NCBI RefSeq assembly: GCF_005160265.1
Contig: NZ_CP039865.1
Coordinates: 2,566,828 to 2,630,827, forward strand
Source of the DNA: Phreatobacter aquaticus
GTDB taxonomy: Bacteria; Pseudomonadota; Alphaproteobacteria; Rhizobiales; Phreatobacteraceae
Length of the DNA stretch: 64,000 bases
Reading direction: 5' to 3'
Shown here in pieces: positions 14,315 through 43,443 of this stretch (position 1 is its first letter; each line of letters begins with the position of its first letter). The notes under the pieces were generated by a model, which was not told the DNA's origin, made no database searches, and worked only from the letters and a program-made list of their open reading frames with translations. The translations under genes and the position numbers were made by a program.

Positions 14315-14767
14315 ATGACCGTCATCAACGTGAACGGGCAGTCGCGCGAGAGCAAGGCTGACCCCTCGACACCTCTGCTCTGGGTTTTGCGCGAGGAATT
14401 CGGGCTCACCGGCACAAAATATGGCTGTGGCGTCGCAGCGTGCGGGGCCTGTACGATCCACATCGATGGCGTTGCTGCAAGGGCGTGTGCCACGCCCCTT
14501 TCGGGGGCTGTCGGCGCGAAGATCGTGACCATCGAAGGCCTGCCGGGCGGCGCGGATCATCCCGTGATCAAGGCGTGGATCACCGAACAGGCGCCCCAAT
14601 GCGGCTATTGCCAGTCTGGTCAGGTCATGAGCGCTGCGGCGCTTCTGGCCCAGACGCCAAAGCCAACCCGCCAGCAGATCGTCGACGCCATGGACGGCAA
14701 TCTCTGCCGCTGTGGCAGCTACAATCAGATCATCGCCGCCGTCGAACGCGCAAGCCAGGGAGCCTGA
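14315..14767 (+). CDS. iorA: Isoquinoline 1-oxidoreductase-type small subunit, [2Fe-2S] protein
   Basis: 150-residue iron-sulfur subunit of a xanthine-dehydrogenase-family molybdenum hydroxylase. A plant-type [2Fe-2S] cluster is bound by GCGVAACGACTIHIDG plus the following Cys in ARACATP. The second cluster uses QCGYCQSGQ and CRCGSY. It passes electrons from the molybdenum centre of the large subunit. ATG at 14315 follows GGGGAGG, and an upstream extension to 14234 is rejected. Its stop lies only three bases before the large subunit start, so the two are co-translated. The exact substrate (N-heterocycle or aldehyde) cannot be given. The gene symbol follows the family name rather than proven activity. 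Confidence 0.88.
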   Translation: MTVINVNGQSRESKADPSTPLLWVLREEFGLTGTKYGCGVAACGACTIHIDGVAARACATPLSGAVGAKIVTIEGLPGGADHPVIKAWITEQAPQCGYCQSGQVMSAAALLAQTPKPTRQQIVDAMDGNLCRCGSYNQIIAAVERASQGA

Positions 14768-14770
14768 ACC

Positions 14771-16966
14771 ATGACCAGCTCCCTCAACGCCATCGCGATC
14801 GCACCGTCTCGCCGGAACCTGCTCGCCGGTGCCGCGGGCCTCTCCTTTGCCTTTGCCTTCGGGACTGCCGGCACGGACGCGCAGGCTCAGTCCGGCGGAA
14901 CGCTCAACGCCTATGTGAAGATCGCGCCAGACGGAACGATCACCATCATGGCGCCCGCGCCCGAGATGGGGCAGGCGACCAACACGTCGCTGCCGCTCAT
15001 CATCGCCGAGGAGCTGGATGCCGATTGGAGCCGTGTGCGCGTGGAAACCGCACCCGTTGCCGCTGCCTACAACCATCCCGTTTTCCGCGCGCAGTTTGTC
15101 GTCGCCAGCCTCACGACCCGCGCCTATTGGATGCCGCTTCGCACAGCGGGTGCACAGGCGCGCCGGGTTCTGATCGACGCTGCCGCCGCGCGTTGGAACG
15201 TCCCGGCCACCGAGCTTACGACCGAGCCCGGCATGGTCGTGCATGGGCCAAGCAATCGCCGGCTGAGCTATGGCGAGATCGCCGGCTTCGCGACGGTTCC
15301 CAATCCGCTGCCGGAGATCAAGCCCGAGCAACTCAAGAAGCCCGCGGATTTCCGCCTGATCGGCAAGGATGTCGCCCGCTGGGACGTGCCGGCCAAGTCG
15401 ACCGGCCGGGCGACCTATGCCATCGACGTGCGCGTGCCGAACATGGCCCATGCCGTCATCGCGCGCGCGCCGGTCATGGATGGCGGGCCCAAGAGCCATA
15501 ATGGCGATGAGGTCCGGAAAATGCCGGGTGTCATCGCCGTGGTTCCCCTCGCGCAGGGCGTTGTGGTGGTCGCCGAGCGCGTCGAGCAGGCCATGGCTGG
15601 GCGTGCGGCCCTCAAGGTCGAGTGGAATGCCGCACCGGCCAGTGGCTACGACTCAACGGCCGCCCTGGCGAAATATGTCGCCGATGCAAAGGACGCCACG
15701 AAGCAAGCCGTTGTCGGCCGCAAGACGGGCGAGGTCGAGCCTGCGCTTGCGTCTGCGGCGCGGGTCGTCTCCGGGGAATATTCGACCGATTATGCCTATC
15801 ACGCGCAGATGGAGCCGCTGACCTGCGTTGCCTCCGTGACGGCGGATGGCGTCGAGGTCTGGACCGGCACGCAATGGCCGACGAAAGTGCAGGGCGACGC
15901 GGCGAGGATTGCCGGCGTTCCGCCCGAGAAGGTCAAGGTCAACATGCAGCCGATGGGTGGCGGCTACGGCCGGCGCGCCCAGACCGAATATGCCAGCGAG
16001 GCCGTGGAAGTCTCCAAGGCCATCGGGCGTCCGGTGAAGCTCATGGCCACGCGCGAGGATGATGTCATCAACGCCCATTGCCGCCCGATGACCGCGCACC
16101 GGATCGATGTCGGGCTCGATGCGAGCGGCAAGGTGACCGCCTGGAAGCACCGGCTCGCTGCCGATCTTGTCGTGCTGCAGGTCTATGGGCAGGCGCGGCT
16201 CGATGCCCAGAAGGGCGTCGACCATATCGTCATGGCCCATGCCGACGTGCCGCTCTACGATGTGCCTCATCACCTGGCCGAACATGTCTACGAGGATAGC
16301 GGCGTCAGGACTGCCGCCTGGCGCGGCATTGGCGCGGGGCCGAACGCCTTCGCCATCGAGGCGATGGTCGACGATCTGGCAAAGCTCGCCGGGCAGGATC
16401 CGGTCGCGTTTCGCCTGGCCTTCCTCAAGGATGCGCGCGCCAAGGCTGTGATTCAGGCTGTCGCCGCGATGTCCGGCTGGCCGAAGGCGCGTGAAGGGGC
16501 AAGCCTCGGCGTTGCCTTCTCGCGGCTTGGCGTGCCGCAGCTGGGCGAGTCGCTTGCCGCTGTCGTCGCCGAAACAACGCTGGATCGGGCAAGCGGGACA
16601 ATCCGCGTCTCGAAGCTCTGGTGCGCGGTCGATGTCGGCTTGCCGGTACAGCCGCGCAACATCCGCCAGCAAGTCGAGGGTTCGCTGATCTGGGGCCTTT
16701 CAAGCGCGATCAAGGAGCGGATCACGCACAAGAACGGCGCCGTCGAGCAGCACAATTACACGGACTATCCGATCCTGCGCATGTCCGAGACACCGCAGAT
16801 CGAGATCCGGATCATCCGCAGTGGCGACATTCCGATGCCGGTGGGCGAGCTGGGGCTGGCATCCGTGACACCGGCCGTCTCGAATGCGATCCTTGCCATG
16901 ACGGGCAAGCGCCTCGCCAACGCGCCCTTCACGGCGGATCGAGTCATGTCGGCACTCAAGACATAA
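14771..16966 (+). CDS. iorB: Isoquinoline 1-oxidoreductase-type large subunit (molybdopterin)
   Basis: 731 residues. The twin-arginine signal SRRNLLAGAAGLSFAFAFGTAG near residues 12-35 and DAQAQ after it mark Tat export, so the enzyme works in the periplasm as in the isoquinoline-oxidoreductase family. Molybdopterin contacts include PMGGGYGRRAQTEY, with Arg-rich GYGRR. The catalytic base Glu is in VGELGLASVTPAVSNAI near the C-terminus. It hydroxylates a carbon next to nitrogen, or oxidises an aldehyde, using water as oxygen source. Its small subunit has no signal and probably travels with it. No cytochrome c subunit or XdhC-type cofactor-loading chaperone is adjacent, which is unusual and implies these are elsewhere. 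Confidence 0.9.
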   Translation: MTSSLNAIAIAPSRRNLLAGAAGLSFAFAFGTAGTDAQAQSGGTLNAYVKIAPDGTITIMAPAPEMGQATNTSLPLIIAEELDADWSRVRVETAPVAAAYNHPVFRAQFVVASLTTRAYWMPLRTAGAQARRVLIDAAAARWNVPATELTTEPGMVVHGPSNRRLSYGEIAGFATVPNPLPEIKPEQLKKPADFRLIGKDVARWDVPAKSTGRATYAIDVRVPNMAHAVIARAPVMDGGPKSHNGDEVRKMPGVIAVVPLAQGVVVVAERVEQAMAGRAALKVEWNAAPASGYDSTAALAKYVADAKDATKQAVVGRKTGEVEPALASAARVVSGEYSTDYAYHAQMEPLTCVASVTADGVEVWTGTQWPTKVQGDAARIAGVPPEKVKVNMQPMGGGYGRRAQTEYASEAVEVSKAIGRPVKLMATREDDVINAHCRPMTAHRIDVGLDASGKVTAWKHRLAADLVVLQVYGQARLDAQKGVDHIVMAHADVPLYDVPHHLAEHVYEDSGVRTAAWRGIGAGPNAFAIEAMVDDLAKLAGQDPVAFRLAFLKDARAKAVIQAVAAMSGWPKAREGASLGVAFSRLGVPQLGESLAAVVAETTLDRASGTIRVSKLWCAVDVGLPVQPRNIRQQVEGSLIWGLSSAIKERITHKNGAVEQHNYTDYPILRMSETPQIEIRIIRSGDIPMPVGELGLASVTPAVSNAILAMTGKRLANAPFTADRVMSALKT

Positions 16967-34686: not shown

Positions 34687-34710
34687 CGCTATATCCATTC
34701 AGCTATAACG
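34687..34710 (+). promoter_or_regulatory. Mo-box (ModE-type operator) of modA-modC
   Basis: CGCTATAT (34687-34694), eight bases, CTATAACG (34703-34710). The arms are inverted copies with one or two differences and match the CG-T/C-TATAT...TATAACG consensus of ModE/MopA sites. It ends 12 bases before the modA ATG at 34723, so binding would block transcription or initiation when molybdate is plentiful. It also rules out the in-frame upstream start at 34684, which lies inside it. Confidence 0.75.
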
Positions 34711-34722
34711 ATGGAGGCCAGG

Positions 34723-35517
34723 ATGGTTTGGGCAAAGGCAACACGCCGGCTGGTACTGGGCCTTGCCATCACGGGGCTGGCCTGCCTGCCTGACGCAAGG
34801 GTTGTCATCGCGCAGGAAGTGCGCCCCGTCCTGGTCTTCGCCGCGGCCAGCCTGCAGACGGCCCTCAACGCCATTGGCGCTGAATGGCAGAAGGAAACCG
34901 GCAGGCGCGTATCGTTCTCGTTTGCCGCCTCCTCCGCGCTCGCTCGCCAGATCGAGCAGGGCGCGCCAGCCGACATCTTCGCTTCCGCCGATCTCGAGTG
35001 GATGGACTGGGTTCAGCAGCGAGCCCTCATCAAGCCGGCGACGCGCACCACGCTGCTCGCCAACAGCCTGGTGTTGATCGCCGCCAAGGACGACCCGGTC
35101 CAGCTCGTGATCGCCCCCGGCTTCGCGCTCGCCGCCGCCATCGGCTCGTCCAGGCTTGCCACCGGCGATCCGCGCGCCGTACCGGTCGGCCGCTACGCGC
35201 AGTCGGCACTCACCGCACTCGGCGTCTGGGACGCGGTCTCTCCCAGGATTGCGGGCGCCGACAATGTCCGCTCCGCCCTGGCGCTGGTCGCGCGCGGGGA
35301 AGCGCGCTTCGGCATTGTTTATGCAACCGATGCGAAGGTCGAGCCGCGCGTGCGGGTGGTTGGCACGTTTCCGGCGGGGAGCCATCCGGCCGTGGCCTAT
35401 CCCTTCGCGCTGACGGCCAGTTCCAGCTACCCGGATGCTACCGCCTTTCTCGCCTACTTGCGTTCGCCTGCGGCAAGCCGGATCTTCGAGGCCGAGGGGT
35501 TCACCCTTGTGCGATAG
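34723..35517 (+). CDS. modA: Molybdate ABC transporter substrate-binding protein ModA
   Basis: 264 residues. Signal peptide MVWAKATRRLVLGLAITGLA continuing to VVIAQ, then the mature start VRPVLVFAAASLQTALNAIG. ModA oxyanion-binding features: the FAAASL Ser, the SFAASSALARQIEQGAPADIFASAD segment, TGDPRAVPVGRYA and the IVYATDA Tyr/Asp. It captures molybdate or tungstate in the periplasm. ATG at 34723 has GGAGG five bases upstream and lies just past the Mo-box. It is followed after 26 bases by modC, with no modB permease gene between, unlike the normal modABC order. Confidence 0.92.
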   Translation: MVWAKATRRLVLGLAITGLACLPDARVVIAQEVRPVLVFAAASLQTALNAIGAEWQKETGRRVSFSFAASSALARQIEQGAPADIFASADLEWMDWVQQRALIKPATRTTLLANSLVLIAAKDDPVQLVIAPGFALAAAIGSSRLATGDPRAVPVGRYAQSALTALGVWDAVSPRIAGADNVRSALALVARGEARFGIVYATDAKVEPRVRVVGTFPAGSHPAVAYPFALTASSSYPDATAFLAYLRSPAASRIFEAEGFTLVR

Positions 35518-35526
35518 GACGCGGTG

Positions 35527-35547
35527 ATGAGCGGTCGAGGCCGATGA
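35527..35547 (+). pseudogene. modB: Six-codon remnant of modB (inferred)
   Basis: ATG-AGC-GGT-CGA-GGC-CGA-TGA encodes M-S-G-R-G-R. It begins 10 bases after the modA stop, where modB normally starts, and its TGA overlaps the modC ATG as ATGA, the usual modB-modC coupling. The simplest reading is an in-frame deletion that removed about 220 codons of modB and kept its first and last codons. Without a relative to compare, this remains inference; chance or an assembly collapse are alternatives. Confidence 0.35.
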
Positions 35548-36653
35548 TCTCCTTTGACTGCTGCTGGCAGCGCCCGGATTTCCGCTTCGAGGCGGCCTTC
35601 GAGGCCGGCGCTGGCATCACCGCGCTGTTCGGGCCGTCCGGGTCGGGAAAGTCGACGGCGATCCGCCTGATCGCCGGTCTCGACCGTCCCGATCGCGGCC
35701 GCATAACGCTCGACGACACCGTCCTGCTCGATACGGCTGCTGGCACCGACGTGCCGCCCCATGCCCGCCGCATCGGCCTGGTCTTTCAGGACGCGCTGCT
35801 GTTTCCCCATCTCTCGGTGAAGGCCAACCTTACCTATGGCCGCTGGTTCACCGATAAGGCCGAGCGGCGCATCGGCTTCGATGCGGTGATCGAGGTGCTG
35901 GGGATTGGCCATCTTCTGGACCGGCGTCCGGCCACTCTTTCCGGCGGCGAGCGCCAGCGCGTCGCCATCGGCCGTGCGCTGCTCACATCGCCGCGCCTCC
36001 TGCTGATGGACGAGCCGCTGGCCGCCCTCGACGAAGCCCGCAAATACGAGATCCTGCCGTTCATCGAGCGCCTGCGCGACGAGTTCGCACTGCCGATCCT
36101 CTATGTCAGCCACGCGGTCGAGGAGGTGACGCGGCTTGCGTCGCGCGTCGTCCGGTTCGAAGCCGGGCGCGTGGTTGCAACAGGAACGCCGTCGGAGGTT
36201 CTGGCTGCCGTGGGCCTGGGCTCCACGGCCGAGAGGCTGGCGGCGCTCTCGCTGGTCACCGGGACCATTGCCCGCCACAGGCCGGATTTCGCCGTGACCG
36301 AGATCGCCCATCCCGCCGGCACCCTGACTGTTCCGGGTCTCGTCGGCAGTCTCGGCCAGACGCTGCGGGTGGCGATCCGCGCAACCGATGTGGCGCTGGC
36401 CGTCGGCCATCCCGGGCAGGTCAGCGTGCGCACCCAGCTCGCCGGCACCATTGCGGCCGTCGATGCGGGCGAGGGGCCCGCTGCCATGGTGACGATCGCG
36501 CTCGCTGGCGGTGAGCGCCTGGTCGCTTCGGCCACGCGGCTGGCCCTCGCCGATCTCGGCCTCGATGTCGGAGACCGCGTGACGGCTCTGGTCAAATCGG
36601 TCGCGATCGACGAGCGTGGCCTCTCGCGCATCGGCACGGGAACGACAGGATGA
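35544..36653 (+). CDS. modC: Molybdate ABC transporter ATP-binding protein ModC
   Basis: 369 residues. Walker A GPSGSGKST (about 32-40), ABC signature LSGGERQRVAIGRALL, Walker B LLLMDEPLAALD and the switch His in YVSHAVEEV. The C-terminal 120 residues are a TOBE/MOP domain (SVRTQLAGTIAAVDAGEGPAAMVTIALAGG...VTALVKSVAIDE) that binds molybdate and regulates the pump. All catalytic motifs are intact, so selection has kept it despite the missing permease gene; it may pair with a ModB encoded elsewhere. The start overlaps the stop of the putative modB remnant, and the stop overlaps the next gene by four bases. Confidence 0.93.
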   Translation: MISFDCCWQRPDFRFEAAFEAGAGITALFGPSGSGKSTAIRLIAGLDRPDRGRITLDDTVLLDTAAGTDVPPHARRIGLVFQDALLFPHLSVKANLTYGRWFTDKAERRIGFDAVIEVLGIGHLLDRRPATLSGGERQRVAIGRALLTSPRLLLMDEPLAALDEARKYEILPFIERLRDEFALPILYVSHAVEEVTRLASRVVRFEAGRVVATGTPSEVLAAVGLGSTAERLAALSLVTGTIARHRPDFAVTEIAHPAGTLTVPGLVGSLGQTLRVAIRATDVALAVGHPGQVSVRTQLAGTIAAVDAGEGPAAMVTIALAGGERLVASATRLALADLGLDVGDRVTALVKSVAIDERGLSRIGTGTTG

Positions 36654-37194: not shown

Positions 37195-37249
37195 CGGATG
37201 GTGCAGTCCGGAACCGGGCATCACCCTTCCGTTTCGATCCACCCCGGCC

Positions 37250-38170
37250 TCAGGGCCATTTCACCACGGGTGGCATGGACGAGAGGATGCTCTCGACATT
37301 GCCGCCGGTCTTCAGGCCGAAGATCGTGCCGCGGTCGTGCAGCAGGTTGAACTCGACATAGCGCCCGCGCCGGATGAGCTGCTCGTCGCGGTCGGCCTCG
37401 GTCCAGGCCGTGCCGAAATTGCCGCGCACCAGCGCCGGATAGATCTCCGCGAAGGCCGTCCCGACGTTCTGCGTGAAGGCGAAATCGGCATTGCGGTCGC
37501 CGGTGTCGAGATAGTCGAAGAAGATGCCGCCGATGCCGCGCGGTTCATTGCGGTGCTTGAGGAAGAAATAGTCGTCGCACCAGGCCTTGTAGCGGGCGTA
37601 GTCGGCTATTTCGTGCGCGGCACAGGCCTTCTCCATTGCCGCATGGAAGGCGATGGTATCAGGATCGGTCTGGGTCCGCCTGCGGTCGAGCACAGGGGTG
37701 AGATCGGCGCCCCCGCCGAACCAGGCCCGCGTCGTGACGACCATGCGGGTGTTCATGTGCACGGCGGGCACGTTCGGATTGCGCGGGTGGGCGATCAACG
37801 AGATGCCCGAGGCCCAGAAGCTAGGATTGTCGCTGGCGCCGGGGATCTGCCCGCGGAATTCCGGTGCGAATTCGCCATGCACGGTCGAGACGTGGACGCC
37901 GACCTTTTCGAACACGCGGCCGGTCATCATGCCCATGACGCCGCCGCCGCCCTTGGCGCCGGAATGGTCGGTGCGCGACCAGGGCTTGCGGGTGAAGCGG
38001 CCCGGCGGCAGGTCCGAATGGACGGTGCCCGAGGGCAGGTCGTCCTCGAGCGCCTCGAAGGCCGCGCAGATGCGATCGCGCAGCGATTCAAACCAGGCCT
38101 TCGAGGCGGCCTTGCGCGCCTCGAGGTCGAACGGCAGGGGCGAGGGATCGGGGCGGGGCGTCTGGCTCAT
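37250..38170 (-). CDS. hemF: Oxygen-dependent coproporphyrinogen III oxidase
   Basis: 306 residues, normal HemF length. It converts coproporphyrinogen III to protoporphyrinogen IX using O2 in haem synthesis, in the cytosol. Conserved segments: [88 protein letters not shown] and the C-terminal [16 protein letters not shown] at 38170 gives the usual N-terminus; no strong ribosome site is visible. It lies 51 bases downstream of the YcnI-PCuAC gene on the same strand, so it may be read through from the metal locus. The need for O2 fits the respiratory theme of the neighbourhood. Confidence 0.95.
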
Positions 38171-38221
38171 GGCGACGGGTCTAACCCCGCCGCCATTCCG
38201 CATCAAGCCGACGCAGTGACC

Positions 38222-39184
38222 TCAGTGGTGGTGATGGCCGCCGGCGGCGGCGCCTGCAGGCGCGCCCGCGCCGATCGCATTGATCGCGAAATCGAGCTCG
38301 ACCGAACCGGCCTTCTCGAACACCAGCGTCGCCTTGAAGCTCTGTCCCTGGGCGAGCGGCCGGGTCAGGCCCATCAGCATGATGTGCAGGCCGCCGGGCT
38401 TCAGCTCCACCGTCTGGCCGGGAGCGATCACGATCCCATTGGCCAGCGGACGCATGGTCATCACGCCATTGGTGGTCGCCATCTCGTGGATCTCGACCCG
38501 CTCGGAGACGCTGGTTGCGCCGCTCACCAGCCGGTCGGGCTCGGTGCCAGTATTGGTGATGCGGACGTAACCACCGGCAACGCGGGCGCCGCCGGGCGTG
38601 GCCCGTGACCAGGGCTGCTCGATGCGCAGGTTGCCGACGCGCACCGCAGGCGGGGCGCTCGGGGCTGCCGCCAGCACAGTCAGCGACGGAGCCGGGCTTG
38701 CCAGATGCGCCGTAGCGCCGGGAGCCGGAACCTCAACCCAGCGGTTCTCGCCATTGGCGCAGGTCTGCACCACCGGGAAATAGAGCGGGCCGGCCGGGAC
38801 GCTGGCATCAATCTGGCCGACGAGCACGAATTCCTCGTAATGCTCGTTCGGCAGGTTGCCGCCGGACCAGGTGATCTCGCGCGCGCCCTGGCGGATTTCG
38901 CGGCCATGCGACGAATAGACCTTGGCATAGGCGCCATTGGTGATCGCCAGCGTCCAGCCGGTCTTCGGCTGCGGCCGGGCCGAGATGAAGCCCTCCGGCA
39001 GGGTCACGCGGACCGATGTGGTCGGCTCGCGACCGCAGCCATGGGGCACGCCGAGCACGGCCTTGTAATAGCTGCCGGCGGGCGCCTCACGACGCTCCAG
39101 CGTCACATGGGCGGAAGCGGCGGTGGCGGCGAGGCCGAGGCCTGCGAGGGCGAGCGAGAAGGCTGTCTTGCCAGTGATCGTCAT
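38222..39184 (-). CDS. YcnI (DUF1775)-PCuAC fusion copper chaperone with His tail
   Basis: 320 residues. Signal peptide ending ATAASA, so the mature protein starts AHVTLERREAPAG. The near-N-terminal His is the copper ligand of DUF1775/YcnI proteins, and W/E/H partners follow (TWSGGNLPNEHYEEF). After a Pro/Ala linker (about 170-190) comes a PCuA(C) domain with EIHEMATTNGVMTMRPL and GLHIMLMG, the H-x-M...M...H-x-M Cu(I) motif. It ends GGHHHH. Both domains bind copper in the periplasm, and PCuAC proteins deliver it to the CuA or CuB site of cytochrome oxidases. ATG at 39184 is preceded by AAGGAG. Part of the minus-strand set with TonB, its receptor and the DUF2946 protein. Confidence 0.9.
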   Translation of the reverse strand: MTITGKTAFSLALAGLGLAATAASAHVTLERREAPAGSYYKAVLGVPHGCGREPTTSVRVTLPEGFISARPQPKTGWTLAITNGAYAKVYSSHGREIRQGAREITWSGGNLPNEHYEEFVLVGQIDASVPAGPLYFPVVQTCANGENRWVEVPAPGATAHLASPAPSLTVLAAAPSAPPAVRVGNLRIEQPWSRATPGGARVAGGYVRITNTGTEPDRLVSGATSVSERVEIHEMATTNGVMTMRPLANGIVIAPGQTVELKPGGLHIMLMGLTRPLAQGQSFKATLVFEKAGSVELDFAINAIGAGAPAGAAAGGHHHH

Positions 39185-39197
39185 GGCGATCTCCTTG

Positions 39198-40340
39198 TCA
39201 GCGGAAATTGATGGGCACGGTGAGGGACATGCTGCCGGGAGCGAACTCGCTCGGCAGCGGCGGGAAGGGGGAAGCGCGCCGGACCATGGCGGTCGCGGCC
39301 TGATCGATGGCGGCCACGCCCGAGGATCGAGCCAGCGACACGCCGGTCGCGGCGCCCGAGCGCAGGATGGCGAAGGAGACGACGGCGCGACCATGCTCAC
39401 CCGAGCCGGCGGGTTTGGCGCGGTGGAGCTGGGCGATGACCAGCGCGAGATAGCTTGGCGGCGGCGTCGATGTGCGCTGGCTCTGTTCGGAGGACACGCC
39501 GCGCCCGGCCGATGCCGTGGAAGGCGCAGCGGCAGCACGCACCGGCGGGCGGCGCTCGGCCCGCTCGACAGGGCGGCGCACTTCGCGGGGCGGTTCGCGC
39601 CGCGGCGGAACAGTCGCGACACGACGGGGCTGGACCACCGGCGGCGGTCGTTGCACGACCGGCTTCGGTTCCGGAGGTTTGGGTTCGGGGGGCGTTGGCG
39701 GAATGAGCTCGGCCGGCAGCGGCAATTCGGCGACCGGGGGCGGATCCAGAACGATCTCGGGCGGCGGTTCCGGCACGGGCGGTGCCTCGGCCATCTGCTG
39801 CTCGACGGGCGGCGGCTCCTCGACGGGCGGTGGCGGTGTCTCGACGACCGGCTCGGGCGGCGTCGGTTGGGCCTCGGCCTGGGGCTCGGCCACCGGTTCC
39901 GGCGAGGCCTCGGCGGCAGGCGCGGGCGGCGGTTCGGCCGGTGCCACGAGCTCGATATCGACGGAGGGCAATTCCATCGCCTGTGGCGGTTTCGGCTCGA
40001 ACATGTAGAACGCCGCCGCCGCCACCGAGGCGTGGATCAGAGCGGAGAGGAGAGCGCCCCAGGGGGCGAGGCGCATGGCGGCAGGCGCGATCTGCCAGGA
40101 CTCGGGCTTGATCGTGAGGGCTGGCGCCAGATTTTCGTCGGCGGTTGCTCCCGGCACCAGGACGGGCAGGGGACCCTGACCCTCCCCCATCAGGTCGGCC
40201 GGCCGCAGGGCAAACAACGCGCGCAGGCTCTCGTCCACCGGGGCGGTGGCGTCGGGCACTGCTGCTGCTGCGGCGTCGGCAAACATGCTGCGGATGGGCT
40301 CCATCGGAGGGAGCCGCCAGCCCGCGAGGACTGGCGGCAT
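39198..40340 (-). CDS. TonB-type energy transducer with long N-terminal extension
   Basis: 380 residues. One membrane helix (APWGALLSALIHASVAAAAFYMF) at about 92-114, a Pro/Glu-rich periplasmic spacer (EPPPAPAAEASPEPVAEP and KPPEPKPVVQRPPP repeats) to about 290, and a C-terminal TonB domain (PPSYLALVIAQLHRAK...GRAVVSFAILRSGAATGVSLARSSG...AATAMVRRASPFPPLP). It links the proton motive force to the receptor. About 90 cytosolic residues before the helix are unusual; most TonB proteins have few. The start is uncertain: 40340 (15 bases after the receptor stop, no ribosome site), 40304 or 40286 (GGAG upstream). Immediately upstream is the receptor gene, arguing for a dedicated partner. Confidence 0.85.
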   Translation of the reverse strand: MPPVLAGWRLPPMEPIRSMFADAAAAAVPDATAPVDESLRALFALRPADLMGEGQGPLPVLVPGATADENLAPALTIKPESWQIAPAAMRLAPWGALLSALIHASVAAAAFYMFEPKPPQAMELPSVDIELVAPAEPPPAPAAEASPEPVAEPQAEAQPTPPEPVVETPPPPVEEPPPVEQQMAEAPPVPEPPPEIVLDPPPVAELPLPAELIPPTPPEPKPPEPKPVVQRPPPVVQPRRVATVPPRREPPREVRRPVERAERRPPVRAAAAPSTASAGRGVSSEQSQRTSTPPPSYLALVIAQLHRAKPAGSGEHGRAVVSFAILRSGAATGVSLARSSGVAAIDQAATAMVRRASPFPPLPSEFAPGSMSLTVPINFR

Positions 40341-40355
40341 TGTGATATTATTACA

Positions 40356-42461
40356 TTAGAACTGGTAGCGCACGCCCCCATAGATCGAGCGGCCCGTGCC
40401 CGGATAATAGCCAGCCGCCGTCGTGTTGTTGTTCACCACCGGGCTGATGTCGCTGATGTAGCGGCGATCGAGCAGGTTGCGGGCGTCGACGAACAGGGTC
40501 GCATTGTTCGGCAGGTTGACGCTCGCCTGCAGGCCCAAGAGCCAGTAGCCGCCGACCTTGAACGTGTTGCGATAGTCGACGAAGGCCCCTTCCGGGACGA
40601 TGTCGACGGTCGGCGTCACGCTGAACTGGGGATGCGTGTAGGTCAGCGCCGTGCGCAGCACGTGGGTCGGGACGACCGGCAGGCGGTTGTTGCCATAGGT
40701 CGGGTCATTGACCATCCGGAAGTCCGAATACGTCCAGACCTGGCGGAGCGTCAGCTTGTCGTCGGCCGAGGCCAGATTGTTGAACAGGTCGACGCTGCCG
40801 GCGAATTCCACGCCCTGCAGGCGGGTGTGGGGCGCGTTGAAGGTGGCGGCGGGAATGCTGGCCGCCGGGTTAACGCCGAACTGCAGCAACTGGTTGCGGA
40901 CATCCGAGGAATAGACGACTGCCTCCCAGCCGAACCGGCCCGAGCGGCCACGCGTGCCGATCTCGAAGGTTGTCGCAGTCTGTGCCTTGAGGCTCGACTG
41001 GAAGGTGGAGATGCCGAGCGAGTTGCTCTGCACCAGGTCGGAGAAGTCGGGCAGGTCGGCGCTGCGGGTGACGTTGGCGAAGACCTGAATGTTCTTCACC
41101 GGCTCCCACAGCACGCCGACGCGCGGATTGACGCCGCCATAGGTGATCGTCTGGTTGATAAAGGCGATGTTGGCGTTGTTGAGGTTGGTTCCGCCATTGA
41201 AGCTGCGCTCCGACTGGAACAGCTTGGCCCCAGCCGTGATGGCAAAAGTCGGCAGCACGAAGAACCGGTTCTCGAACCAGGCTTCGTAGTTGCGCGAGGT
41301 CTGGCGGGCATTGGTCGTCAGCACGCCGCGCGTGGCATTGCCGAGATTCTGGTACTGCAGTGCGTCATTGGTGCCGTTGAAGATGCGCGCGCCGATGACG
41401 ACATCGTTGCGGAAGCCGCCGAGATTGAACGAGCCGTTGAACCGGGGCGAGATGCCATAGGTCCAGCCATCCTGGTCCAGCACCTGGAAGATCGGGTGGT
41501 TCAGGTGCTTGTGAACGACGAAGCTGGTGATATCCAGCTGGCCTGAATCGAGCTTGAAGCTCGTCACATTGGCGAAGCGCTGGACATAGGTGTTGCGCGC
41601 CTGGTCGCCTGAGACCGCGCCCGCATTGGCCATGCGCGGATTGGTCATGGCCTGGTTGTAGGTCAGCGTGCCCGGCAGCTTCACGTCGGTGTAATAGGCG
41701 CCCGCATAGAAGCGCGTCTCGACCCGGTCGGAGAAGCGATAGCCGGCATTGGCGTTGAAATGGCCGAGGTTCTGCTGCTCGTGGGCTCGCCAGCCGTCGG
41801 AATGGGTCACCGTCCCGCCGACATGGAAATCCCAGTTGCCGATGACGCGCGACACCTCGCCATGGGCGCGGATCGTACCGAAAGAGCCGCCATCGATGCG
41901 GAAGATGTTGGGGGCCGCCGCCGTATAGGCGGTCGGCGTGACGAAATTCACCGCGCCGCCCAGCGTGGAAGCGCCGAAGGGCAGGGCATTGCCGCCGCGG
42001 AACACTTCGATGGCCCTGAGCCCCATCGGGTCGATCTGGTAGAAGTCGCCCGAGCCATCCGCGAGGTTGGTCGGAATGCCGTCCTGCAGGATCTCGACGC
42101 CGCGCGTGTGGAAGGCGCGCGCGATGCCAGAACCGCGGATCGAGAGGCGGATCTCCTGGCTGTAGCGGTTCTGCACGAAGACGCCGGGGCTCTCCTGAAG
42201 CACGTCGCGCAGGTTGCTGGCGTAGGTGTTGCGATAGGTCTGCGCGTCGATGAACGACACAGCGCCGGCGGTGGAGTTCACCTGTTCGCGCTGGCGGTCG
42301 ACCCCGGGCTGGGTGAGCGAGCCACCGCCTGCGCCGGAACCGGCCGGGCGACCATCGACGTCGATCTGGGGAAGCTCAAGGCTCTGAGCGAAGGCCTGAG
42401 GTGCTGAAAGAATGGCAAGACCCGTCAGGGCCGCCCGGAGGATTCTGGACATGGGGAACAT
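40356..42461 (-). CDS. TonB-dependent outer-membrane receptor (probable copper or metal)
   Basis: 701 residues. Signal peptide to about residue 25 (SAPQAFAQ), then ELPQIDVDG as a TonB-box region. Plug domain: NLRDVLQESPGVFVQNRYSQEIRLSIRGSGIARAFHTRGVEILQDGIPTNLADGSGDFYQIDPMGLRAIEVFRGGNALPFGASTLGGAVNFVTP. A 22-strand barrel follows, ending GRSIYGGVRYQF with terminal Phe. The plug contains no obvious siderophore-type extension. Neighbours (DUF2946, YcnI-PCuAC) suggest copper rather than iron. Alternative start 42452. Located between the DUF2946 gene and tonB on the minus strand. Confidence 0.9.
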   Translation of the reverse strand: MFPMSRILRAALTGLAILSAPQAFAQSLELPQIDVDGRPAGSGAGGGSLTQPGVDRQREQVNSTAGAVSFIDAQTYRNTYASNLRDVLQESPGVFVQNRYSQEIRLSIRGSGIARAFHTRGVEILQDGIPTNLADGSGDFYQIDPMGLRAIEVFRGGNALPFGASTLGGAVNFVTPTAYTAAAPNIFRIDGGSFGTIRAHGEVSRVIGNWDFHVGGTVTHSDGWRAHEQQNLGHFNANAGYRFSDRVETRFYAGAYYTDVKLPGTLTYNQAMTNPRMANAGAVSGDQARNTYVQRFANVTSFKLDSGQLDITSFVVHKHLNHPIFQVLDQDGWTYGISPRFNGSFNLGGFRNDVVIGARIFNGTNDALQYQNLGNATRGVLTTNARQTSRNYEAWFENRFFVLPTFAITAGAKLFQSERSFNGGTNLNNANIAFINQTITYGGVNPRVGVLWEPVKNIQVFANVTRSADLPDFSDLVQSNSLGISTFQSSLKAQTATTFEIGTRGRSGRFGWEAVVYSSDVRNQLLQFGVNPAASIPAATFNAPHTRLQGVEFAGSVDLFNNLASADDKLTLRQVWTYSDFRMVNDPTYGNNRLPVVPTHVLRTALTYTHPQFSVTPTVDIVPEGAFVDYRNTFKVGGYWLLGLQASVNLPNNATLFVDARNLLDRRYISDISPVVNNNTTAAGYYPGTGRSIYGGVRYQF

Positions 42462-42526
42462 TCAACGCTGGATGAGATCATGCGCGGGGCCGGCTCACGC
42501 CGGTCAGCCCGCTGGCTGGACATCAC

Positions 42527-42928
42527 TCAGGCGGTGAAAGGTGGTGCTCGCGGCGATCGCGTCCCGAGCCAGCCAGTAAAGGCATAGGGCGGCAGGATCG
42601 CGTCATAGGTCCTGACGAAGATCGTAGCAGTGGCGACCGGCTCGACCGTGACGCTGGCGGTAACCTCGGCGGCGGCCGGTGCAACGCTGATGCCCGAGCA
42701 GAGCAGGCAATGATCGGCCGCCAGCGGCTTGTGGGCCGGCACCGATCCGTCGTCGCGAACGGTGGTCATGCCCTCCATCGTGCAGAGCACGAGAAGGCCG
42801 CCGGGGGCCGCAACCGCCGAGGAATGGCTGACCGCTCCCAGAAGACCTGTCGCCGCGATGACATAGGCCATGGCCGCCACCACGAGGGTGCGCACATGCC
42901 GATATCGGGCGCTGCGAAAGAGGTTCAT
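42527..42928 (-). CDS. DUF2946-type membrane-anchored metal-related protein
   Basis: 133 residues. A signal or anchor helix (VRTLVVAAMAYVIAATGLLGAV) at about 12-33, then LCTMEGMTTV and AADHCLLCSGISV: Cys/Met and H-C-x2-C residues spaced as in DUF2946 proteins, which commonly accompany TonB-dependent metal receptors. These thiols could carry Cu(I). ATG at 42928 gives a normal signal; 42991 is possible, and the frame further upstream is low-complexity Arg/Pro sequence and rejected. First gene of the minus-strand set, divergent from the ModE-like gene. Confidence 0.7.
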   Translation of the reverse strand: MNLFRSARYRHVRTLVVAAMAYVIAATGLLGAVSHSSAVAAPGGLLVLCTMEGMTTVRDDGSVPAHKPLAADHCLLCSGISVAPAAAEVTASVTVEPVATATIFVRTYDAILPPYAFTGWLGTRSPRAPPFTA

Positions 42929-42956
42929 GGTCTTGATGTGCTCCGGTGTGAAACAG

Positions 42957-42970
42957 GAGTCAATTGTCTC
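42957..42970. promoter_or_regulatory. Palindrome between the DUF2946 and ModE-like genes
   Basis: GAG-T-CAATTG-T-CTC: a 14-base palindrome broken only by a central-flanking T/T pair. It lies 29 bases before the DUF2946 start and 84 before the ModE-like start, a suitable place for an operator controlling both directions. It does not match a Mo-box. Confidence 0.4.
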
Positions 42971-43053
42971 TTGGGCATCAGTGCTTTTCATCTCAACCTT
43001 GCTGGTGGACGGCAGTATGCTTGCCCCCTCCAAGGCTGTTGGACAGGCGATCA

Positions 43054-43443
43054 ATGACTCCCGACGACCCGAAGGTTCCGCCGCGCCGCCGCCTCGCCGA
43101 CGCGCGCCCACGCATCCGCATCGTGTTCGGCGAAGGCCTGCGCCTCGGCCCGGGCAAGATCGAACTGCTGGAGGCGATCGACAAGACAGGCTCGATCTCG
43201 GCGGCGGGACGGTCTCTCGGCATGTCCTACCGGCGGGCCTGGCTCTTGGTCGATGCGATGAACACCATGTTTGCAAGCCCGGTGACCACGGCAGCGGCCG
43301 GCGGCGCGCAGGGCGGCGGCGCACATATTACCGACTTCGGCCGGCGCCTGATTCTCGCCTACCGGTCGGTCGAGCGGAAGACCGGCGAACTCGTGCAGCA
43401 GGAACTCGCTGATCTGGACGGGGACATGGGCCCCGCGCCCTGA
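43054..43443 (+). CDS. ModE-type winged helix regulator lacking the molybdate domain
   Basis: 129 residues. The N-terminal DNA-binding domain of ModE/LysR type is complete: FGEGLRLGPGKIELLEAIDKTGSISAAGRSLGMSYRRAWLLVDAMNTMF, with the GSIS-AAG-LGMSYRRAW recognition helix, then GGAHITDFGRRLILAYRSVE as wing and dimer helix. ModE continues with two MOP domains that bind molybdate; here the protein ends 30 residues later (LADLDGDMGPAP). Similar short proteins are annotated as winged HTH regulators of unknown ligand. It is divergent from the TonB-receptor set. It may control that set, or act at the Mo-box 8 kb away; the sequence does not decide. Confidence 0.85.
   Translation: MTPDDPKVPPRRRLADARPRIRIVFGEGLRLGPGKIELLEAIDKTGSISAAGRSLGMSYRRAWLLVDAMNTMFASPVTTAAAGGAQGGGAHITDFGRRLILAYRSVERKTGELVQQELADLDGDMGPAP

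Follow-up and report, generated by a model that had tools for sequence, protein, structure and literature searches.

Does a genome in which modA is followed directly by modC still encode a complete molybdate importer? The question is raised by the genome under study (G000), a single contig of 4,974,952 bases, from which the stretch C1:2566828-2630827 was analysed. This stretch of 64,000 nucleotides is called the window, and positions refer to it unless C1 is given. Here, modA stops with the TAG at 35515-35517 and modC starts with the ATG at 35544 (reading ATGATC), which leaves a gap of only 26 nt and no room for a permease gene. The contiguous operon layout, with modB between modA and modC, is not found. 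A sequence-only reading of the window had reported these two gene ends together with a six-codon open frame in the gap, and all its coordinates for them proved correct when the sequence was read again. The relevant features of the window are:

34687 to 34710 (core), plus strand: Mo-box-like operator before modA, exact match to the genus pattern described below and 17/22 to the published ModE consensus
34723 to 35517, plus strand: modA, periplasmic molybdate-binding protein (TIGR01256, 194 bits, cut-off 62.5; start at 34711 or 34723, judged by eye)
35518 to 35543, plus strand: modA-modC spacer of 26 nt, the place of modB in intact operons
35527 to 35547, plus strand: six-codon ORF with ATGA overlap with modC, not similar in sequence to modB ends
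35544 to 36653, plus strand: modC, molybdate importer ATPase (TIGR02142, 399 bits, cut-off 285)
42964 to 43443, plus strand: ModE-like DNA-binding protein, candidate Mo-box regulator (TIGR00637, E 6.7e-24, 83.8 bits, below the cut-off of 98.5)

We explain the locus as one part of a high-affinity molybdate ABC importer, predicted to be working, whose operon is split into two units under Mo-box-like operators. A probability of roughly 0.88 is given to this explanation, which is built on sequence comparison.

Position of modB in the genome under study and in its relatives

The genome-wide profile search with TIGR02141 gave 42 matches, exactly one of which exceeds the cut-off of 182.6 (222 bits, C1:2639806-2640435). 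The corresponding ORF, C1:2639767-2640462 on the plus strand, is also over the cut-off of the molybdate permease model NF006939 (369.6 bits versus 262). In window coordinates it would occupy 72940-73635, i.e., this single full-length modB lies outside the window, 9 kb beyond its end and 36.3 kb downstream of modC on the same strand. A tctC-type gene, encoded on the minus strand, flanks it on one side, and pncB follows directly on the other. A ModB encoded elsewhere had been among the options considered from the sequence alone, and it is the one that the search brought to light.

modA is likewise the only gene of the genome over the TIGR01256 cut-off (one weaker second match reaches 42 bits), and modC is the only one over that of TIGR02142; the ModC protein carries the domains PF00005 and PF03459 (TOBE). 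No second modABC over the family cut-offs was found in the genome by the TIGR01256, TIGR02141 and TIGR02142 searches. Since each subunit occurs once over its cut-off, the three genes represent the only complete ModABC set by these models. The earlier view that the molybdate system is functional is in good agreement with these scores, and the three genes probably form one importer made of two transcription units. Ratios of dN/dS for modB are about 0.19, 0.14, 0.05 and 0.04 in four pairs of genomes that share the split, within the range of modA and modC; judged by these values, modB is under purifying selection in the split genomes. The molybdoenzyme frame that had been proposed at 14315-16966 did not hold up at its full length, as it contains a stop; a large ORF is present at 14771-16966 and serves as a candidate only.

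Could modB have been removed from the operon by an assembly collapse or a sequencing artefact, as had been considered? Apart from the unusual gap nothing points in this direction. The genome is a closed PacBio assembly at 183x, according to passages of PMC6742797, four further assemblies show the same gene order with different spacers, and modB is present elsewhere in G000. We regard an artefact as practically out of the question.

For the comparison with relatives, 61 genomes were searched per subunit (modB at E 1e-52, modC at 1e-85, modA at 1e-30). Within the genus, five out of 12 genomes are split (G000, G003, G005, G008 and G011): modA and modC are adjacent, and in all five modB follows 24-45 kb further downstream, in the same orientation. 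Two further genomes (G006 and G010) have an intact modABC, and the remaining five have modA-modB and no modC at the TIGR02142 search threshold of 1e-85. Outside the genus, all three subunits occur in 26 genomes, and modB adjoins modC in 24 of them, the exceptions being G055 and G060. We also examined 80 named loci with modC, which represent 80 of 124 relatives. A modB match just upstream of modC was found in 73 of these, and the seven without it are L168, three loci of Labrys and three of Methyloceanibacter (L159 incomplete). Only L168 among the seven shows modA-modC without modB. With 24 of 26 genomes and 73 of 80 loci, adjacency of modB and modC is supported as the usual state.

Other deviating arrangements were observed as well. 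In G060, which belongs to the same order, modA, modB and modC are found at three distant places (L265, L266 and L267). A Mo-box search before the dispersed mod genes of G055 and G060 gave at best 14/22, before modA, and 9-11 before modB and modC; in G060, a Mo-box-like site (14/22) is present before modA only. In G045, the modC match beside modA-modB (C1:1670232-1670933) is interrupted by a TAA, and another modC match exists elsewhere in the genome.

With respect to known systems, the genes of G000 resemble the canonical modABC operon, represented by G006, G010 and, according to passages of PMC6925177, by mopA-modABC of Rhodobacter capsulatus: all three subunits score over their cut-offs, a Mo-box-like site precedes modA, and the start of modC overlaps an upstream frame as ATGA. 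They differ in that modB is 36.3 kb away behind a Mo-box-like site of its own instead of between modA and modC. Splitting of gene blocks is often observed in bacteria (PMC4481853), and here, too, a block was broken up and its parts were retained; particular to the present case, the parts appear to share an operator, and it is the inner gene that is set apart. Anabaena variabilis, for which a passage of PMC3627308 describes modA plus a fused modBC, offers another non-standard layout of the same importer, although modB and modC are joined there, whereas modB of G000 is apart from modA-modC. A literature search of titles, opening lines of abstracts and text passages found no published report of a split modB.

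Mo-box-like sites and a candidate regulator

The sites before modA and modB in the genus can be written as CGCTATR-N10-YAYARCG. Since this pattern was drawn from the very sites in question, it is the uniqueness of its occurrence that counts and not the fit. In the 4.97-Mb genome of G000, the exact pattern occurs at two places only, before modA and before the lone modB. The same holds for G005 and G011, while in G003 and G008 it is found at modA and at other places, never at modB. When one mismatch is allowed, the backwards pattern is commoner than the pattern itself in all seven genomes searched, and therefore exact matches alone are meaningful.

An independent scale is given by the ModE consensus with 22 fixed positions, as printed in a passage of PMC2700814. 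Over 60 kb of G000, the modA site ranks first (17/22) and the modB site second (16/22), followed by a next best of 14. The highest score in G005 is 14, reached by modA and by modB; in G011, modB reaches 15 and modA 14, with one further site also at 14. The modA site scores 15 in G003 (top) and 15 in G008 (tied with another site), while modB of these two genomes has no site above 9 and 11 of 22, respectively, within 300 nt, whichever strand is read. Mo-box-like operators thus stand at both units in G000, G005 and G011, and modB of G003 and G008 has none, so that co-regulation does not extend to the whole group. The Mo-box before modA had been called intact in the sequence-only reading; it is indeed the best site of the 60 kb scanned, but at 17 of 22 fixed positions it is not perfect. 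Beyond the Mo-box, no homology of the modB leader and the modA leader was seen by eye.

The candidate regulator at 42964-43443 comprises the ModE N-terminal domain only and scores below the family cut-off of TIGR00637; no Mop domain and, at 1e-5, no Pfam match was found in it. A ModE-like gene, again under the family cut-off, follows modC within 1.4 kb or less in G003, G005, G008, G011, G006 and G010. In G000 the distance is 6.3 kb, apparently owing to the inversion of a block of about 6 kb. This block, from about 37240 to 43400, includes the ModE-like gene and has the opposite orientation in the four other split relatives; a part of it also runs the other way in non-split relatives.

From these observations we propose the following mechanism. 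The modA-modC unit at 34.7-36.7 kb and the separate modB unit between the tctC-type gene and pncB would both be repressed at plentiful molybdate by a ModE-type regulator, probably the protein 42964-43443, and both would be released when molybdate is scarce. ModB would assemble with ModC in the membrane, and ModA would deliver molybdate to ModB. Co-repression and subunit assembly, like the way in which modB moved, are steps that we infer. What looked like a broken importer may thus be understood as a split operon whose detached gene apparently has the same metal-responsive switch as the rest. This would constitute a natural test of whether the subunits of an ABC importer must share one mRNA or whether co-regulation is enough. 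Two relatives, G003 and G008, apparently do without a switch at modB, while their modA-modC unit keeps its own. The case is also a warning that gene order alone is insufficient for calling modB absent.

The spacer between modA and modC

The open frame in the gap, ATGAGCGGTCGAGGCCGATGA at 35527-35547, had been taken for an in-frame remnant of modB. Its placement is in agreement with this idea. Where the operon is intact (G006 and G010), 9 nt separate the modA stop from the start of modB, whose TGA forms the ATGA overlap with modC; the mini-ORF of G000 shows the same distance of 9 nt and the same overlap. More generally, among 81 loci with modB, 57 have a modB-modC overlap of the ATGA length and 13 an overlap of one base (92 of 110 loci were scored; the others were dropped, mostly as unoriented). 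The codons themselves do not agree. The modB starts that were read begin with ATGTTC, ATGTTT, ATGTAT, ATGGAT, ATGGAC or ATGATG, none with ATGAGC, and by eye the six codons show no similarity to the starts and ends of modB in relatives. Such dissimilarity had been named beforehand as evidence against a remnant, and for G000 it is what was found.

A broader version of the idea is that the mini-ORF serves as a coupling cistron, either as a remnant of a modB deletion or as a later replacement: after finishing modA, ribosomes would translate the six codons, terminate at the ATGA and start again on modC. The nearest Shine-Dalgarno-like motif of modC, GAGG, is only 3 nt before the ATG, and such poor spacing would be compatible with coupling. 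Moreover, a frame with a start codon that stays open into the ATGA is present in the spacers of all five split genomes (ATG in four, GTG in G011). These spacers measure 26, 39, 224, 31 and 59 nt and differ from each other, which speaks against the coupling idea. The ATGA, on the other hand, is dictated by the second codon of modC (ATC). An in-frame ATG without stop appears in 7% of mononucleotide and 17% of dinucleotide shuffles of the G000 spacer, frequencies that make the mini-ORF unremarkable alone. For all five spacers, the corresponding values are 5-25% (mononucleotide) and 17-57% (dinucleotide) with ATG, and 15-55% and 47-67%, respectively, with ATG or GTG. The joint chance of five out of five is 0.002 (mononucleotide) or 0.06 (dinucleotide) if the genomes are treated as independent. 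They are not, and counted by three lineages it rises to 0.03 or 0.2. We consider the recurrence borderline and suggestive at best.

A resemblance to modB was found in G011, where the end of the spacer, GGCGCGCCGCCATGATC, is nearly identical to the modB end of G006, GGCGCGCCGGCATGATC, and may be a true modB trace. Outside the genus, modC without modB is preceded by a seven-codon mini-ORF in L163 and by none in L159 and L162. Taken together, the six codons of G000 are more likely incidental than functional, and a coupling cistron appears improbable to us. Still less probable is its extended form, in which a minimal cistron of 4 to 18 codons was retained or arose anew in each lineage, as a vestigial gene that would only hand ribosomes from modA to modC via ATGA, with modB matched transcriptionally by its own Mo-box.

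Some variation around modC was recorded in addition. The spacer of G005 (L111) contains an extra GC-rich, repeat-like stretch that is absent from its close relative G011, and it has no stop in the frame leading to the modC ATGA. In Labrys (L177, L178 and L180), no modB match was found within 5 kb upstream of modC, and the frame overlapping modC as ATGA runs on into a longer ORF.

Age and direction of the split

A very recent loss of modB, also considered at the outset, is contradicted by the comparison within the genus. Judged by sequence divergence, the split is old and not recent, because five of the 12 genomes share it and ModC of G000 is only 70-71% identical to that of G005 and G008 (ModB 82-83%). 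Quick, midpoint-rooted trees of modA, modB and modC each unite the five split genomes (SH-aLRT 94, 92 and 91). They conflict in one point: modA groups G000 with G005/G011, and modB and modC place G000 outside.

modB stands directly before pncB in all five split genomes. In six of the seven non-split genomes of the genus (the contig of G001 ends early), the gene of a peptide-transporter ATPase adjoins pncB, and modB is absent from all six sites; no modB trace was found at these empty sites by blastn. The additional DNA at this place in G005 and G011 is roughly the Mo-box-like site plus modB, right behind the stop of the upstream gene. In G006, G007 and G010, the place of modA-modC is empty and the genes on its two sides are neighbours; G002 gave no match to one of these two genes, nor to any mod gene at this place. 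Outside the genus, a search of seven outgroup loci found the peptide-transporter gene next to pncB in none, and therefore synteny with outgroups cannot give the direction.

The empty sites suggested an insertion in the split genomes, and the rooted trees are mixed. Alternatively, the split dates back to the ancestor of the genus; the seven genomes that do not show it would have lost the two units and acquired other modABC operons, and the empty sites would be secondary. This history is compatible with the split importer proposed here, and we give it even odds. It is favoured by the rooted rpoB trees (nine of the 12 genus genomes, G004 and G009 partial), in which the split G005 groups with non-split genomes (support 70/64 for protein, 80/97 for codon positions 1+2 and 94/98 for all positions). 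The AU test against a split clade gives p = 0.163 (protein), 0.18 (codon positions 1+2) and 0.006 (all positions). The grouping of the G006/G010 modABC with other genera and the five genus genomes without modC at the TIGR02142 threshold point the same way. The unrooted pncB tree argues against it, as a single branch parts split from non-split genomes (96/97); the rooted pncB tree is undecided (45/7 for protein, 62/36 for DNA in the opposite direction). The missing modB trace at the empty sites is a further point against it. As to the surroundings, G006 and G010 have the cyd genes about 10 kb past modABC, and G000, G005 and G011 have them immediately before modA.
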